Assembly (NCBI RefSeq): GCF_020085105.1
Contig: NC_058053.1
Coordinates: 20,859,388 to 20,923,387 of the forward strand
Length of the DNA stretch: 64,000 nucleotides
Direction of reading: 5' to 3'
Source of the DNA: Siniperca chuatsi
Lineage: Eukaryota > Chordata > Actinopteri > Centrarchiformes > Sinipercidae
In this document: in pieces, positions 40,601-51,501 of the stretch
Position numbering within the stretch: position 1 is the first letter of the stretch
Layout of the letters: every line of letters begins with the position of its first letter
Notes under the pieces: generated by a model
What the model was told of the DNA's origin: nothing
Seen by the model: only the letters and a program-made list of their open reading frames with translations
Database searches by the model: none
Made by a program: the position numbers and the translations under genes

Positions 40601-41080
40601 AGTGTGAGACTAAGATGAAATTCAGTTTAGTCTCAACCCCCAGTTTAAGCCATTTATAATATAATCATTGGCACTTGTGATTTTTTACATGTGTGAATCG
40701 AACGCGAGCTACCCACAGACAGTTGGCACCCCTCACTTTCTAGTCGAACATGTCCTTTTCCTGTGTGAAAACTCCACCCGACACATGTGCTACTCTCACG
40801 CAAACAAAAACACAGACTAATGGAGTTATGCCATATCTGCTACAGAATCTGTTTCACACCTTGAGATCAAACATTTTTGCACATGTAAAAAGAGAATTGC
40901 ATTCAGTTGAGTGCATCACTCTAGACAAAGTTTTTTTTTTTATGTTGGTTGATGTTTTATGCTTTCTCAATCAGATATTAAACAATTAACAAACAATCAC
41001 ATGATGTGCATAAATTAAGATTAATATAATATAGCTTTATTTCCACCAGCATTTTGTAAGTCTTTGTTAAACCCTGGCAC
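37680..41080. other. Intergenic stretch between upf3a and p2ry8
   Basis: No coding exon is recognised. It holds a (TG)n tract at 39382-39430 and a (CT)n tract at 39934-39952. A donor-like ATATAG/GTGAGTG near 40061 could close a non-coding 5' exon of p2ry8, since the p2ry8 coding exon is preceded by an acceptor, but this link is speculative. Confidence 0.4.
39382..39430. repeat. (TG)n microsatellite
   Basis: Nearly uninterrupted GT dinucleotides between upf3a and p2ry8. Confidence 0.9.
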
Positions 41081-41087
41081 ACAGGTG

Positions 41088-42583
41088 ATGGGAGGCCATT
41101 TCCATCCAATCATGACAGGGAATTCCAGCAACATCAGTCTTGACAACGCTACCCTGTCGATGCTTCAGGATGTGAACACCAGCATTGCCACCTCTGTCAT
41201 CTACATGATAGTCACTGCCATTAACCTGGTAGGAAATGGCCTTTCCATGTGGCTTCTCCTCTTCCGTACCTCCCCCAAGACTCCCTCCATCATCTTCATG
41301 ATTAATCTCACCCTCACCGACTTGGCCCTTGGCGCTGCCCTGCCCTTTCAGATCGTCTATCAGCTCAAAGGATACCACTGGAATCTGGGACCCAAGATGT
41401 GCAGGTATTCTTTATGATTACAGGATGAGGGTAAAGTATTGATATAGTATTGATGTCTTTAATAGAAATCCACAAAAATGTGGACAACCTTGTGTTTGTC
41501 AGGCCAAGCGTTATTTTTGCAGATACTCAGTGTACATCCATAGTCCACTAGTTGGACTATGGATGGCACATAACCCCCCATAAAACCACAAATGGTCTTT
41601 TTTAAACCTCGGTTTAAATAAACAACATATAACCTGTTAATTAATGAGCTTTTCAGGTGCTGGTAGGTGGATTTTATTACTTTAGGACAGAGCCAAGCTA
41701 ACTTTTCCCCCCGTTTCCAGTCTTTATGCTAAGCTAAGCTTACCTGCTGCTGGCTTTAGCTTTATATGTTTAATGATCATTTTGCTTTAACCAGAGATTA
41801 AATAAAACACTCTTCTTCTATGTATCCACCTACAGTTTACTGACCCTCGTCTTCTACACCAATATGTACTGTTCCATCCTGACCATGATGGCCATTGGAA
41901 TTGACCGCTACCTGGGCATCGTCAGGCCTATGCTGTTCAGGGAGACCAGGGAGAAGAAGTCCATCGCTGTCATCAGCTGCCTTCTCATGTGGGGTTTGGT
42001 CCTGAGCGTTCTGTATCCACTGATGACCACAGACCTGACCTTTCACATTCCTAAACTCAGGATTACCACATGCTTTGATGTGTTGAAGAAAGACATGCTC
42101 CCGACCGTGTCAGCCTGGGCGGCCTTTCTCTTCAGCATGGTGTTTGTCCTCTTCCTCTTCCCTTTCTGTGTCACGACATTCTGTTATGTCAGTGTCATAC
42201 GCAAACTGGCCAGAGATTCCAAGACCGCCCAGAAAGAGAAAGCAATACGTCTGGCTATCATTGTTCTCCTGGTCTTCACCCTCTGCTTTGCTCCCAGCAA
42301 CATCCTCCTGTTCGCTCATTCTGTGCTGAGACTCTTCTATAAGCAGTCTCTCTACACGGCCTACAAACTCTCTCTCTCTTTCAGCTGCCTGAATAGCTGC
42401 CTCGATCCGTTCATTTACTACTTTGCATCCAAGGATTTCCGACAAAAGCTGAGACAGATAATGAATCTGCACAGCCTGAGTAGTGCGGACTCAATGAAGA
42501 TGGAGCATAAAGAGAGTTTGTACTCGGCACATTACACTTTCGAGGAGAGAAAACAGCAAGGTGACACTGATGCCACAGTATGA
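41088..42583 (+). CDS. p2ry8: G protein-coupled receptor P2RY8
   Basis: Two coding exons, 41088-41404 and 41836-42583, with GT-AG junction, give 354 aa (human about 359). An acceptor (CACACAG) ends 3 nt before the ATG at 41088, so the first exon is non-coding; the ATG at 41115 is a possible alternative start. Near the N-terminus are NSSN, NIS and NAT glycosylation sites. Seven membrane segments can be read: GNGLSMWLLL in TM1, NLTLTDLALG in TM2, the ECL1 Cys (GPKMC), DRYLGIVRP at the end of TM3, the ECL2 Cys (TTCFDVLKKDMLP), FCFAPSN-like TLCFAPSNILL in TM6 and DPFIYYFAS in TM7. NATLSML, TCFDVLK and the tail ESLYSAHY match P2RY8 specifically. In mammals it couples to G-alpha-13 and restrains migration of germinal-centre B cells; S-geranylgeranyl-glutathione is its reported ligand. 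The intron contains a piece of a fold-back repeat. Confidence 0.93.
41575..41765 (+). repeat. Partial copy of fold-back element family
   Basis: Shares, in order, GTTAATTAATGAGCTTTTCA, GGTGCTGGTAGG, GGACAGAGCCAAGCTAAC, and CAGTCTTTATGCTAAGCTAA with the right arm of the element at 55598-56258. It lies in the p2ry8 intron, with only one arm kept. Confidence 0.65.
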
Positions 42584-44379: not shown

Positions 44380-47300
44380 ATGGTGCTGAACCCTGTCATT
44401 TCCAAGCTCGCTGGTAAACTGGTCGTGCTGGCAAGTGCTTCTCCTAGGAGACTGGAGATTCTCCGCAATGCAGTATGTTTCCCTCTGGTTAAACTCGTAG
44501 GAATTGTAGATATATCACAACAGCTGCACATTTTGTTTGATTGTGAACACATAAAATTGTACATATCGAGTTAAGCTGGAACAAGGTTTCTCTTTTCTGA
44601 AATCTTGCCTTCAGCAATTAGATACTTGTCAAGCTGTCATGTGAATCTATGCATCATATAAACACCGCCTAGATCATAGTTATGGATTTTTATACACAAA
44701 ATAATAATATATCAAACAAATTTAGGTTTATGTGTCTTGTAAATCTTTCATGATCCAATCACTGTATCAGGCAAGCTCATGTGCAGTCCTAACAATATGG
44801 TTGAGAAACCTTAGGCTGAATGACCAATAAATAATTTGTCACATCTCTTACTTTGACTTATAATGTCTTCACTGATAATGAACATAATGATAATGAACCC
44901 ATAAATTAGCCGGACTTATATATTGGCCAATATTATCTTATGGCAGATATATCTTATATATATATATATATAAAGTTGGTCGAAAGGTAACAAGAAATTG
45001 CAGTACAGAAGATGTGTGATGTGTTCGAGGTAGTTTAGAAACAGTGTTGCTGTTTGTTCACCAGAGAGCATTGACAAGTTTATTTTTCAACTGTAAAATA
45101 TCCCACTCAGTACATATTTTGGTCACAGTTCTTTAAACAAAATATGTTTATGTAAAAGGCTGATTCAAATACTGATATCAGCTTAAAAAAATCCAGTGTG
45201 GAGTATAACTTTATTGTTGCATTTTTCTCTCCTATATTTCAGGGCTTACAGTTTGAGATGGTACCATCTTGGTTCAAAGAAACTCTTGACAAGGGACTTT
45301 TCAAAGCACCTCATGAATATGCTGTTGAGACAGCCAAACAGAAGGCCCTGGAGGTGGCCAGGAGGATGCCCTTTGTGAGTTAAGCTCATCTGTGTATGAC
45401 AGTATACAGTCTATATATTATCCTGTTGAATGACACATTGATAACATATTGTGTATTAATTTGCTTTAGAAACACCTGAAGACTCCAGACATAGTAATCG
45501 GAGCAGACACTATTGTGGTAAAAGGAAAAAAGAATAACTGTATTTTATCTGCTTACTCTCTGCAATATAGGTTGTATGTTTTTTTTATTCACTCTTCATT
45601 GTTTTTCAATTCCACAGACTGTAGATGGCATGATTCTGGAGAAGCCAGTGGACAAACACGATGCTTACAGGATGCTGTCAAGGTCAGTGTCATTTTCCCT
45701 GTTTCTGAGATAACAGAAACCGAAAACAGACAGGATATTTTTACAGTTTCTCTCTTCTTTATTTTTATGTTCCAGCTTGAGTGGTAAAGAGCACAGTGTC
45801 TTTACTGGTGTAGCTATTGTCCTCTGCCATGAGAAAGAAAGTAAGTTACAACTGAATAATGGTTAGAATTTGTTTTCTATAGAAATTTGATGAAGCAAAC
45901 TTGTTAGAACAGTTAAGCCCTTTGAGGTACTTTTTTATTTTCTATTTCTTAAATGTCCAGTAAGAATATCTGCGCGGAAAAGCTATACAGTATTGTAGGT
46001 TGATTTCATACCAGTTTTGCAAATATATGTGGATAAATATATAAATAAATAAAATTAATACATGGGAGGGCCAAATGTAGCGTTTCCATCAATGGGCACG
46101 TTTCATTTTTTAAACCTCCCTTCTCAGACGAAGAAGTGGATTACCAGTTGATTGACTTCTACGAAGAAACAAAGGTGAAGTTTGCTGATCTCTCAGAAAA
46201 TATGCTGTGGGAGTACATCAATAGCGGTGAACCAATGTGAGTATGAACGCTTGAACTGTCACATATGCACATATGTAATAGCTATTATCTCTTGGTGTAA
46301 CCTAACCAAGCATTTGATCAATGGAGGTCATTCAAGTGGTTGTGGGCCCCATGAACCTGTTGATTTTTGGACTTTGATGCCTGAGTTTTGTGTTTGCTTT
46401 GGCCTCTTGGACAGGCCAGGGATTGTGTCAGCAAGAAATAAAATCTTGACTTTGGTCAGCAAGAGTGTATTGTTTGATTTGTTCTGCACATACAACCCCT
46501 TTATGTATGTGTGCAGATGTTTTTGTCTTAATCTTAGTGTAAATGTTGCTGTATAAGTAAAATGTTTGTCTGTGTGTGTCAGGGACAAGGCTGGCGGCTA
46601 TGGTATTCAGGCTCTTGGTGGCATGCTAGTGGAATATGTCCATGGAGACTTCCTCAATGTTGTGGGTTTCCCCCTCAACCACTTCTGCAAACAGCTTGAC
46701 CTTATTTACAACCACTGTACTTCCCCCTTGGACGAGGAAAGTCCATCTGTCTGCCTGAGCCACAACGGCACTCACACCTCCTCAATACTCATTCAGCCCC
46801 CATCCAACCTGCCAGCTCAGTCTAGCCACAGTTCCAGCTCTTCAGCCAAACACAACCCCTCATCCAGCCCTTCAGCCAGTCCCGTCCATAAGGTTAGTTT
46901 TTCTCAGCCTATGAGCACAATCTGTTACCTTTTTGTCATTATTTTTAAGTAACAGTCTCCCCTTATAGGTGAAAAAGAACAGCAGTGAAAGTGAAGTGGG
47001 TGAAAGTTCCTGGATCTTGGTCAACAGCCTGTCTAAACATACAGATGATAGAGAGGCTGAGTTCCAAGACTCTGAGAATACAACATTACCACTGATAACC
47101 AGCAGAGGACAGTTGAGCTCAATGACTGAGCTCAATGTGACAGAGCAAGAGGACAGTGATCCCCTAGTGAAAAAAGAGGACTTGCAGCAAATCATTGAAC
47201 TGATGGATGGATTCAAAGCCTCAAAGGTAATTAGAGATTAATGTAAATTCCTATATTGTTAAAGCTCTATGTGATGTGTTTTCATAGTGAAATATAACTT

Positions 47301-50300
47301 TTAATTATTGACATTGTTGTAGTTGATTTCTAGAGGATGTAATGAAGCATTTAGCTCAACTTAAAGAAATAGTCCAACATTTTGGGAAATACACTCGCTT
47401 TCTTTCCATAGGCGCAGTTTGAACTTTAAGGTTGGGGGTTCACAAAAAACAAATCTAGACGAAATGTAATGTGTATATCAGAGGCTTCGTTTACATGAAA
47501 ATTAATAATCAGGATACCCGCAGGTGCATTTTCATATCCCGACTAATATGCTCAATGAGTGATGGAATATTGCGAGAATTACTGTAGAAACCGAACTTGC
47601 ACAAACTGCAAAACCCGATGAGCCTTACAGGCTCGTTGATAGACCTACCCCGTGGCGTCTAATATGAACCATAGCATATGCTGTATGTTAAGACACAGAG
47701 AGGTCTGTAGTGTATTGGGATCTCCACCAGGTGGCAGCGTAGGGTTGGGTGATGTCTACCAAATTGGCATATGATGATGTCCACAGTAAAACATCGTGAT
47801 GGACGATGACATCAGTGGTATGGCTCCTTTTAAGGGACAGGGCAGTGTGGGTGAGCGAAAAAGAGAGTGACGGTGACTGTACTCAGAGCAGACAGGTGTT
47901 GGTGATTGGAGCAGAGGGAAAGGTTAGCAGTGAAGTTGTCTAGTGGCAGTAAATGTACAGTGTAGGTTACAGTGTGCCCATTTTAAATCACGATGATATG
48001 ATGGTAGAGAGAGACAATGGCACTGCTGAATCGGTCCAACCCTACTAGGCTATAAATGCTGTGTGTACATTAGGGACAGCATATGTAGACTATGGCCGCT
48101 AGCTAAGGGAAGCAGTGGCTGTCTGTCCCAACCTCTTGACTCAGTCTCTGCACTGGCAGTTTCTTCTCTGGGCCTAGCTGGTGTTGTTAGTTTCGCAAAG
48201 AAACAGCTTATATCCATTATTTGATCATGTCAAAAAGTCTTCTTTCAAGGCAGTGGTGGTGAGCTGAAGAAGCGCGTAACCGCTCCTTCTTTGCCTGTTG
48301 TGGGTACGCGTGTGAGAGTGCCCATGCAGGCTACTATACCACAGAATTAGACCAGAACAATGTTTTATGTAAATAATCAAAGTCACACAAATTAGTTAAC
48401 CCTTAGTATGTATTATTATAGAGCAAAGCATTACAAACAATTATTAATTCTGTGTTATTATAAAAATGATAAAATTTAAATCCATACATGCATTTTTGGC
48501 TATGGCCACTAGGGGGTTCAGTGAGCCCCCTGAACAAGCGCAACGCAAACTGCAAACATCAGGTAATTTAGAATCACATATCACATTCACATAAATAAAA
48601 TTGCACTTTGCTTCTGTATCCATTCTGCTTTTCCCAAAATGTTCCAGGCACTATTCACCGCATCCAAATTGTGTGTGTTCGACCTGCTACAAAGCAGGCC
48701 AGGGCTGGATGCAGAGCAGGTAGCCCAGGAGATTGAAGCCTCTGCGAAGGGGACTGAATGCCTGCTGGAAGCCTGTGTGTCTCTGGGACTGTTGAAGAGC
48801 AAAACGAGAAGTTCGTCAGCACTCATCTGTGTTGATCATTACATGATGATCACTTTTTCACACCTTAAAGGGACAGTTCACCCCAAAATCAAAAATACAT
48901 ATTTTTCCTCTTACCTGTAGTGCTATTTATCTATCTAGATTGTTTTAGTGTGAGTTTTGGAGATATCGGCTGTAGAGATTTCTGTATTTTTTTAATATAA
49001 TGGAACTATATGGCACTCAGCTTGTGGTGCTCAAAGTGGCAAAAAAATACATGTGTCTTGCCAGAAATCATGACCCGGTTACTCAAGATAATCCACAGAT
49101 TTGTTGTGAGCAGTTTGATGTAGGAACTGTTTTCCTTCTATAGTCTTTCGATAGTTAGATAGTTTCTTTCGCCCTCCAGCCTATTTATTCAAAATTAACA
49201 AATCGCCTCCTGACTACAGATAAGAGGAAAAATATGTATTTTTGATTGTGGAGTGAACTGTCCCTATAAAGAGATATCATTTAATATTTAACTTAAAATG
49301 AACCTCTCACTTGTTTTATGGTGTCTCTGCTCCCAGCATGCCAGAAGCCAGAGTACGAGAACACAGCTCTAGCCACGCAGTTTTTGCTGTCAGATGCTCC
49401 TTTTTCGCTGCAGGGCTACATCAAGCATTGTAATGACACAGTGTGGCCTCTTTTCTCCCACCTTGAGAATGCTGTGCGGCAGGGAACCAACCAGCATGAG
49501 AAGGCTTTTGGCAAGAAATCGAAGGATATGTTTCAGGTGATTATCTCCAAGTTCAGCTTCAGATGGATAAAATATGGGAGAAAAACATGAAACTATTTTA
49601 CAGGTGCTATTTATTTATTTGTTCCTCTATGTCATTTGTTTCTAATTAAAGGATACTTTCTACAACAGTCAAGAAGTCAAACTGAGATTCATGAATGCCA
49701 TGCACAGCATTGCTAAAGTTACAGGAAAAGCTGTAGCAACAGCCTTTGACCTCTCCAGTTTTAAAACTGCCTGCGACCTTGGAGGTAAAGACAGAATGTA
49801 AAGGTTAAAATAGTGTCCTTGACTAATAAACCATTCTTTCACATGTAATCTTTTTTTTTTTCCAGGATGCACTGGTGCCATGGCCTATGAGTTTACTAAA
49901 GCCCATCCTGGGTTGTCTGTGACAGTGTTTGACTTGCCAGCTGTTGTTGAGATGAGTGAACATTTCCATCCTCTGCACACAGACAACAGAGTATCATATG
50001 TAGCAGGTCAGTTTGTGTATCTGCATCAAAATACAGTCTTGACTGTGGATGTTTAATGATAAAATGTTGGCTAATGCAGTGTAATTAGCTTATTCTGTGG
50101 GTTTTGGATATCAAAGTAACAACTCACTCACTCTGTGACCATAACTCATAGCTTTGTTCTCTCTGCATAAACAGGAGACTTCTTTAAAGATGAGTTGCCC
50201 AAAGCAGACTTGTACATCCTGGCGAGAATTCTCCATGACTGGCCTGATGAGGAAGTGCATATTCTGCTAAGTAAAATTGCAGATGTGTGCACACCAGGTA

Positions 50301-51501
50301 AAAGCTATTTAGTTTTTTTTATCTTTTATACTACATATTTTCACTGAACAATGAATGCTAACATAATTCCAAATGTATTATTGACATATGCTTAGTATAA
50401 TGTTCTCAGTCATGTGCCAGTGAAACTTAGGACTCTGCAGTTTTCCATTTCAACAGCGACACTGTAGCAATAGATTTCACTGATTAGCTTCCACATTCTG
50501 GTAAAATCATATGTAAAATCTGCTGCTGTTTAGTTTCAGTGTAAGACTCAGTGGGACTTGGTTGAGAAACACAGCTGTAACCTGTTATTGTGACATGTAA
50601 AACAACACTTTGCAAGAAGCTGGCTAGTTCAAAGCCAAAATACCAACTTGATGCTAGTTTTGTTGTTCTTGATTTTGTTCTTTGCCTAAAGCAAAGGAAT
50701 GCAAGGGGATAAGGGATTACAAAACCACCACTATTGTGCTCTAAAGTTGTACATCTGCATACACATCATGCCCTTGCACCATTATGCCAGGCTGTGGACT
50801 CCTGCTAAGTGAGATCTTCCTGGATGAAGACAGAAGGGGCCCGAGTCGTGGGCTGCTCCAGGCCCTCAGCATGAGCGTGGGGAAACAGAGGAGTGCGACA
50901 GAATACAGTCTGCTTTTGAAGAGCCATGGTTTCATAACAGCACATGTCAGACATACAGACAACCTCCTGGATGCCATGCTCTGTATCAAAGCGTGACTGA
51001 CACCCTCAACACTATATGGAAGGTCTTGTGATATATACTGTAGTAACTTTTGCCAGAATCAAGGACTAAGGTCAGGAATGTTTTTAAGTGTGAGTCTGTA
51101 AACCAGCCTCTTGCCATTAAAAGGAGTCTTTGTTTTAACATTTACTTTTTTGTATTGTGTAAAGACAGATTAAGTGGAAAAAAATATGTTTTAAGTATTG
51201 GAAACAAATTGTATTATTATTATTATTATTATTATTTTGTTATAATTTTTCTACTCATTATAAGGTCTTGAACAATCTCTTTTGTTGGCCCCTAGGATGT
51301 GCAGTGCTCATAGCTGAGACCATGTTGGATGGACTGACACCCTACTCTGCTTTGCAGTCTCTGAACATGCTTGCCCAGACTGAGGGGATAGAGAGGACAG
51401 AGAGCCAGTATGCAGACTTGCTGAGCAAACATGGATTTGGTGACACGCGTGTGGTTCACACTATGAACTTCCTTGATGCTTTTATTGCCATTAAAATGTG
51501 A
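44380..51501 (+). CDS. asmtl: ASMTL: Maf-like pyrophosphatase fused to O-methyltransferase-like domain
   Basis: Shared coding exons: 44380-44472, 45243-45374, 45470-45517, 45618-45682, 45776-45840, 46128-46236, 46583-46892, 46969-47226, 48648-48810, 49337-49536, 49652-49784, 49866-50006, 50175-50297; then either of two terminal exons (50791-50996 or 51296-51501). Either choice gives 681 aa (human about 621). The start has an ideal Kozak context (GCCACCATGG). Residues about 12-215 are the Maf domain, a nucleotide pyrophosphatase fold: ASASPRR, IGADTIVTVDG, EKPVDK, LSGKEHSVFTGVAI, DKAGGYGIQALGG, GDFLNVVGFPL. A Ser-rich linker in exons 7-8 follows, longer than in human. The C-terminal half is the ASMT/HIOMT-type SAM methyltransferase domain: CDLGGCTGAMA binding loop, TVFDLP, AGDFFKDELP, LARILHDWPDEE. 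The exon 9 to 10 junction uses a weak donor (A/GTTCGT) and is the least sure boundary. The physiological reaction is not established in any vertebrate. Confidence 0.93.
44955..44972. repeat. (TA)n microsatellite
   Basis: Pure TA tract in asmtl intron 1 (coding numbering). Confidence 0.9.
47359..47405 (+). repeat. End fragment of the fold-back element family
   Basis: TTAAAGAAATAGTCCAACAT then TTTTGGGAAATACACTCGCT matches the outer end of the family whose larger copy is at 55598-56258. It is truncated, in asmtl intron 8. Confidence 0.55.
47736..48050. repeat. Probable MITE with TAGGGTTGG ends
   Basis: GTAGGGTTGGGTGATG on the left and CGGTCCAACCCTACT on the right form short inverted ends. The interior has repeated ATGATGT/CGATGATAT words. 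Target duplication is not clear. In asmtl intron 8. Confidence 0.4.
48869..49265. mobile_element. TTAA-type MITE with about 55-bp inverted ends
   Basis: The left end AGGGACAGTTCACCCCAAAA, followed by ATACATATTTTTCCTCTTAC, is mirrored on the right by ATAAGAGGAAAAATATGTAT and GGAGTGAACTGTCCCT. TTAA borders the left (48865-48868) and decayed ATAA the right. A well-known non-autonomous fish family; in asmtl intron 9. Confidence 0.75.
50791..50996 (+). CDS. asmtl: asmtl alternative terminal exon A
   Basis: After acceptor ATTATGCCAG, 206 nt run in phase from exon 13 (G split g/gc) and encode 67 residues plus TGA. It reads CGLLLSEIFLDEDRRGP, then LLQALSMSVGKQRS, EYSLLLKSHGF and HTDNLLDAMLCIKA, the last strands and helix of the methyltransferase fold. 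The segment LDEDRRGP is the family-typical one; it lacks the QTEG loop seen in exon B. An ATTAAA at 51116-51121, before exon B begins, could serve as its polyadenylation signal. Confidence 0.85.
51211..51238. repeat. (ATT)n microsatellite between the two asmtl terminal exons
   Basis: About nine TTA units, 57 nt before the acceptor of terminal exon B. Length variation here could affect the branch-point region of that acceptor. Confidence 0.85.
51296..51501 (+). CDS. asmtl: asmtl alternative terminal exon B
   Basis: After acceptor TTTGTTGGCCCCTAG, 206 nt run in the same phase from exon 13 (G split g/ga) and encode 67 residues plus TGA. It reads CAVLIAETMLDGLTPYSA, then LQSLNMLAQTEGIERTESQY, ADLLSKHGF and HTMNFLDAFIAIKM. 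It is homologous to exon A along its whole length, with 24 of 67 residues identical in a gap-free comparison made by hand. LNMLxQTEGxERT is the family-typical wording, as in human ASMTL. It starts 299 nt after the exon A stop. Confidence 0.85.

Follow-up and report, generated by a model that had tools for sequence, protein, structure and literature searches.

The asmtl gene of Siniperca chuatsi ends in two homologous coding exons that lie side by side, each closing the reading frame with its own stop codon. The explanation that we favour, with a probability of about 0.7, is an ancient tandem duplication of the terminal exon of this gene, after which the two copies were retained as alternative last exons. 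The gene occupies positions 44380-51501 on the + strand of the 64-kb stretch of DNA analysed here (the window), and is modelled as 13 common exons, all GT-AG and in an open frame, followed by either terminal exon A or terminal exon B. With either ending the predicted product has 681 residues encoded by 14 exons.

44380..50297, + strand: asmtl exons 1-13, common to both products
44380-44472, 45243-45374, 45470-45517 and 45618-45682, + strand: asmtl exons 1-4
45776-45840, 46128-46236, 46583-46892 and 46969-47226, + strand: asmtl exons 5-8
48648-48810, 49337-49536, 49652-49784, 49866-50006 and 50175-50297, + strand: asmtl exons 9-13
50791..50996, + strand: terminal coding exon A, 67 residues plus TGA, 206 nt, phase 1, AG acceptor
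51296..51501, + strand: terminal coding exon B, 67 residues plus TGA, 206 nt, phase 1, AG acceptor

The common exons encode the Maf domain, the dimerisation domain and most of the O-methyltransferase domain. Searches against Pfam placed Maf at residues 15-210 (194.9 bits in both products), the dimerisation domain at residues 343-431 (90.5 and 90.3 bits in the two products) and Methyltransf_2 at residues 454-661 (182.7 bits with exon A, 191.8 bits with exon B), all above the Pfam cut-offs and in the order of the ASMTL fusion. The Maf and methyltransferase halves are joined by an 86-codon linker exon (46969-47226, + strand). Upstream of asmtl and on the same strand lies a rhodopsin-type GPCR frame (41777-42580, + strand; 7tm_1, 108.5 bits), while a further frame at 41025-41417 (+ strand) resembles, by eye, the first part of this receptor, the whole of which would then span 41025-42583. 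Judged by its position this is probably p2ry8, as P2RY8 adjoins ASMTL in the same direction in the published neighbourhood (PMC6151645, PMC11765961). No Rfam family reached its gathering score between 40000 and 54000, and no relative was found among the 99 pattern matches in viral contigs.

An earlier note on this DNA had described the two terminal exons as homologous, of identical length and phase, each preceded by AG and ending in TGA, with 24 of 67 residues matching without gaps, and all of these particulars proved exact. Chance is ruled out as the source of the resemblance. The 24 ungapped residue matches (102 of 206 nt) compare with a mean of 4.7 and a maximum of 15 in 20,000 shuffles of exon B, and the local BLOSUM62 score of 102 with a mean, over 5000 shuffles, of 22.1 (sd 4.2, maximum 49). 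When either exon was used as a tblastn query against the 64-kb window, its only significant match was the other exon (E about 1e-9), the next-best matches having E values of 0.086 for exon A and 3.3 for exon B; the window thus holds no further significant copy of the terminal exon by this search. The two exons are homologous, neighbouring and in the same phase, as tandem duplicated last exons are. Taken alone, exon B scores 27.7 bits against Methyltransf_2, above the Pfam cut-off of 22.3, and exon A scores 18.4 bits, below it.

When A and B are aligned with each other and no third sequence is included, the alignment stays ungapped. This ungapped version was dropped as a statement of true homology in favour of one guided by human ASMT (26/64 identical), relative to which its middle is out of register. 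Compared with human ASMT, three residues are missing from exon A between SMSV and GKQR (around QTE), and three from exon B between LD and LQSLNM (around EDRRG), losses that are not visible from A and B alone. Both stretches are present in the bacterial relatives L001 and L002, L001 carrying EDRSGP plus the LNMLV-TDGKER stretch, while L005 is also three residues short at the same place as exon B (the EDRRG stretch). Because the missing residues lie at different places, two different 9-nt losses are the best explanation for the equal length, which is probably coincidental. The proposal that each copy had kept a different ancestral segment, with LDEDRRGP retained in A, is therefore supported, since L001 has both, but with what seem to be two separate three-codon losses, equal length can no longer serve as a sign that the exons are interchangeable.

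The residues listed for the N-acetylserotonin site of human ASMT are Y108, F156, H255, D256, N302, M303, Q306, E311 and Y338 (Zhang et al. 2017, PMC6151645). The terminal exon covers the last five of these listed positions. At 302, 303, 306, 311 and 338 (human ASMT numbering), exon B encodes N, M, Q, E and L, and exon A encodes S, M, no residue, Q and L.

50868-50870, + strand: exon A codon for N302S
50886-50888, + strand: exon A codon for E311Q (Q306 is missing from this exon)
51364-51366, + strand: exon B codon keeping N302 (M303 is also kept)
51376-51378, + strand: exon B codon keeping Q306
51391-51393, + strand: exon B codon keeping E311

The product with exon B is thus predicted to contain the catalytic residues H255, D256, E283, N302 and E311, whereas that with exon A would retain H255, D256 and E283 and have S and Q at 302 and 311. 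H255-D256 and the SAM-binding part are common to both products. The terminal exons had been described as interchangeable ends of two 681-residue enzymes, and the lengths agree with this, but three of the substrate-site residues found in B are either changed or absent in A, so the exons are not simply interchangeable. Bacterial relatives provide a wider comparison, the region being covered in 57 of 59 loci. In these, position 311 is occupied by E in 22 loci, by D in 22, by Q in 2 and by another residue in the remainder, with N at 302 in 37 loci and H at 255 in 54. N302 and E311 occur together in all six of the closest relatives (L001-L006); these O-methyltransferases come from Acidobacteria and relatives and share 37-41% identity with the methyltransferase half of ASMTL. 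A role for this glutamate beside the catalytic histidine is known from plant O-methyltransferases. We take human ASMTL to have N at 302 and E at 311 and, if so, exon A is the one that has changed in fish.

Exon A carries a signature that can be recognised in published work. Differences between fish ASMTL and ASMT1/ASMT2 are reported to include Y108H, N302S and E311Q (Zhang et al. 2017, PMC6151645), of which the latter two are the residues of exon A; the part common to both products has H at 108. Since fish ASMTL is reported with N302S and E311Q, an A-type exon is most likely the end of the published fish protein, judging from the residues named in the text of that paper, and exon B most likely has yet to be described. 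Like the gene modelled here, the published fish ASMTL is a fusion of Maf and ASMT; unlike it, a single C-terminus is named, and the mudskipper protein, cloned as cDNA from eye RNA, has 605 residues encoded by 13 exons as against 681 residues and 14 exons here. The same source reports ASMTL expression in several tissues of mudskippers and of two of three Sinocyclocheilus species, ASMTL mRNA being undetected in the cavefish relative S. grahami. Use of an A-type exon by fish other than this one is thus supported by the published residues.

Both copies show signs of constraint. The ASMT-guided alignment of A and B gives pS of 0.76 (silent sites saturated) and pN of 0.43, with pS above pN in 1000 of 1000 codon bootstraps (0.65 and 0.47 in the ungapped alignment), although such a difference alone could reflect constraint on one copy only. 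The two copies stand about equally close to human ASMT (29/66 identical for A and 29-30/66 for B, the MAFFT alignment included; local scores 116 and 103). Under a simulation of neutral decay with an assumed indel rate (2000 runs per setting), 0.3 substitutions per site left the frame intact in 0.3% of runs for A and 0.2% for B and lowered the mean ASMT score to 47 and 46, compared with the 116 and 103 observed; as the simulation starts from the present-day exons, a copy released only recently would escape notice. Codon use points the same way, the scores of 0.266 (A) and 0.268 (B) bits per codon being reached by 0 of 2000 intron samples (introns -0.564, sd 0.226), with the proviso that exon A also scores fairly high in its reverse complement (0.230) and +2 frame (0.118). 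Both exons therefore look, from this one genome, too well preserved for long neutrality, though a recent loss of function would pass. The earlier suggestion of intact frames under selection in both copies is borne out to the extent that simulation and codon use in one genome give signs of constraint, and the pattern is consistent with use of both exons.

These observations bear on an alternative in which only exon A, the published end of fish ASMTL, is used, exon B being a remnant of the ancestral exon that no longer serves. The match between A and the published residues is what one would expect under this alternative, as is the lack of any mention of a second terminal exon among the matches listed from the ASMTL literature, for the mostly open-access portions covered. 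An exon long out of use should, however, have decayed as in the simulation, while B has an intact frame, coding codon use and the set N302, M303, Q306 and E311, along with a better Pfam score than A (27.7 vs 18.4 bits) and, as described below, a better acceptor. We consider this alternative unlikely, and exon B is probably used in this fish.

The signals around the exons suggest how a choice between them could be made. Acceptors were scored with an approximate table of splice-site frequencies, and candidate poly(A) signals were assessed by their downstream elements.

50776..50790, + strand: 3' splice site of exon A, score 2.5, 12/17 pyrimidines
51281..51295, + strand: 3' splice site of exon B, score 6.9, 14/17 pyrimidines
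51116..51170, + strand: candidate poly(A) signal for exon A between A and B, ATTAAA with downstream T/GT-rich TTTTTTGTATTGTGT
51490..51495, + strand: ATTAAA over the last codons of exon B, candidate poly(A) signal
52715 and 52729, + strand: ATTAAA and AATAAA, other poly(A) candidates for exon B, 1.2 kb on

Both acceptors fall within the range of the other 12 asmtl acceptors (1.4-12.2, two of them below A). That of A is nevertheless weak: its score is equalled or exceeded by 5.5% of the 4171 AG dinucleotides in the window, as against 0.7% for the acceptor of B. A match to the branch-point pattern yTnAy occurs once in the 70 nt before exon B, and none was found in the 70 nt before exon A. Downstream of the ATTAAA at 51116 the best 15-mer contains 14 G/T, a value reached by a fraction of 0.04 of the 116 A[AT]TAAA hexamers on the + strand, whereas the three candidates for exon B have weaker downstream elements (10, 11 and 11 G/T of 15). 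Alternative last exons should each have a stop and a 3' end of their own; here both exons end in TGA, and a good poly(A)-like site follows A, with weaker candidates for B. For the intron upstream of A, predicted RNA folding was no more stable than that of shuffled sequences (z = 1.15; 88/100 shuffles at least as stable). Past the stop of exon A, a donor-like GTGAG lies at 51090-51094 (+ strand); if used, it could splice A to B, making A an internal exon and B 3' untranslated sequence.

The weaker acceptor of A, the lack of a branch-point match before it, its score below the Pfam cut-off when taken alone and its loss of N302, Q306 and E311 would all fit a second alternative, namely that B is the working end and that A, either decaying or regulatory, yields a non-functional or low-level product through its early poly(A) site. 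Against this, the N302S and E311Q of exon A are those reported for fish ASMTL, of which a cDNA has been cloned and expression reported in several tissues of several fish, and A is about as near to ASMT as B is, with an open frame and coding codon use, which makes this alternative quite unlikely.

The proposal that the terminal exon was duplicated in tandem is supported by the similarity of A and B beyond chance and by a tree of the exon segment in which they are sisters (0.897), with human ASMT next (0.729). Because ASMT falls outside the pair, duplication inside asmtl is favoured over import from asmt, although the support from this tree, built on about 67 residues from the two exons, human ASMT and a hand-picked 11 of the 57 bacterial loci, is weak. 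That one exon was instead copied in from an asmt gene, much as KRAS exon 4A is proposed to derive from nras (PMC9882654), concerns origin only, would be compatible with alternative use, and is in our view very unlikely: A shares LDEDRRGP with human ASMT, scores slightly above B against it (116 vs 103), and is no more alike to B (26/64) than either is to ASMT, but A and B group together in the tree and both have HGF, V-HT and LDA, in contrast to AGF, a dissimilar stretch and YDA in ASMT. The idea that a degenerate second asmtl gene follows exon B was rejected, since the whole-protein search returned no stray exon remnant outside the gene model at E up to 0.5 save one minus-strand match (E 0.29). 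The duplication thus seems to have been confined to the terminal exon. Sequence common to the flanks of A and B, from which the duplication might be dated, is lacking; their only matches, of 16-17 nt, are at chance level.

Under the favoured explanation of two retained alternative last exons, the end of exon 13 (50297) would be spliced to A and the transcript cleaved at the candidate poly(A) signal that precedes B, giving a product in which three positions of the N-acetylserotonin site are changed (N302S, Q306 absent, E311Q). Alternatively, A would be skipped and the better-scoring acceptor of B used, giving the ASMT-like set N302, M303, Q306 and E311. With a weak acceptor and a good poly(A) site at A followed by a stronger acceptor at B, splicing and cleavage may compete. 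Either choice would leave the Maf domain, the SAM site and H255-D256 the same, and the product with B would be expected to act canonically, while that with A may be altered in substrate or catalytically weak. A broader proposal, which is possible but on balance doubtful, is that across teleosts the choice of last exon switches the methyltransferase between a complete (B) and a disabled or re-aimed (A) state while the Maf pyrophosphatase is unchanged.

Tandem homologous last exons are a known phenomenon. KRAS 4A/4B is likewise an ancient pair of homologous tandem last coding exons; mutually exclusive use of both its exons is established (PMC9882654), whereas use of both is predicted for the asmtl pair. 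The KRAS exons also differ in swapping a membrane-targeting tail, while the asmtl swap would alter residues of an enzyme's substrate site. Among human tandem duplicated exon substitutions, which represent the same type of event, 77 of 236 are C-terminal, as in asmtl, and C-terminal substitutions are enriched (PMC9741552); ASMTL has 0 occurrences in the main text of that study. Overlap with predicted functional residues was below expectation in the human set, whereas three listed site positions change in asmtl. Drosophila pip similarly offers a mutually exclusive choice of tandem homologous terminal exons in an enzyme gene, but has eight clusters, encodes a sulfotransferase of an unrelated family and is listed under 3' untranslated examples (PMC9013439). 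What asmtl adds is a new case in which the swapped piece reaches the substrate site.

The methyltransferase half of ASMTL has no known substrate, and a 2024 review ranks ASMTL among tentative methyltransferases (PMC11514484). If both products are made, this fish would provide a natural matched pair, one with a complete and one with an altered site, for finding that substrate. The finding also prompts a look at whether the annotation of fish asmtl ends with exon A. If two ends are in use, statements about the residues of fish ASMTL would need to be made exon by exon, and should the switch proposed above hold, the description of fish ASMTL as an enzyme without the substrate-site residues of ASMT would be an effect of seeing one of two exons.
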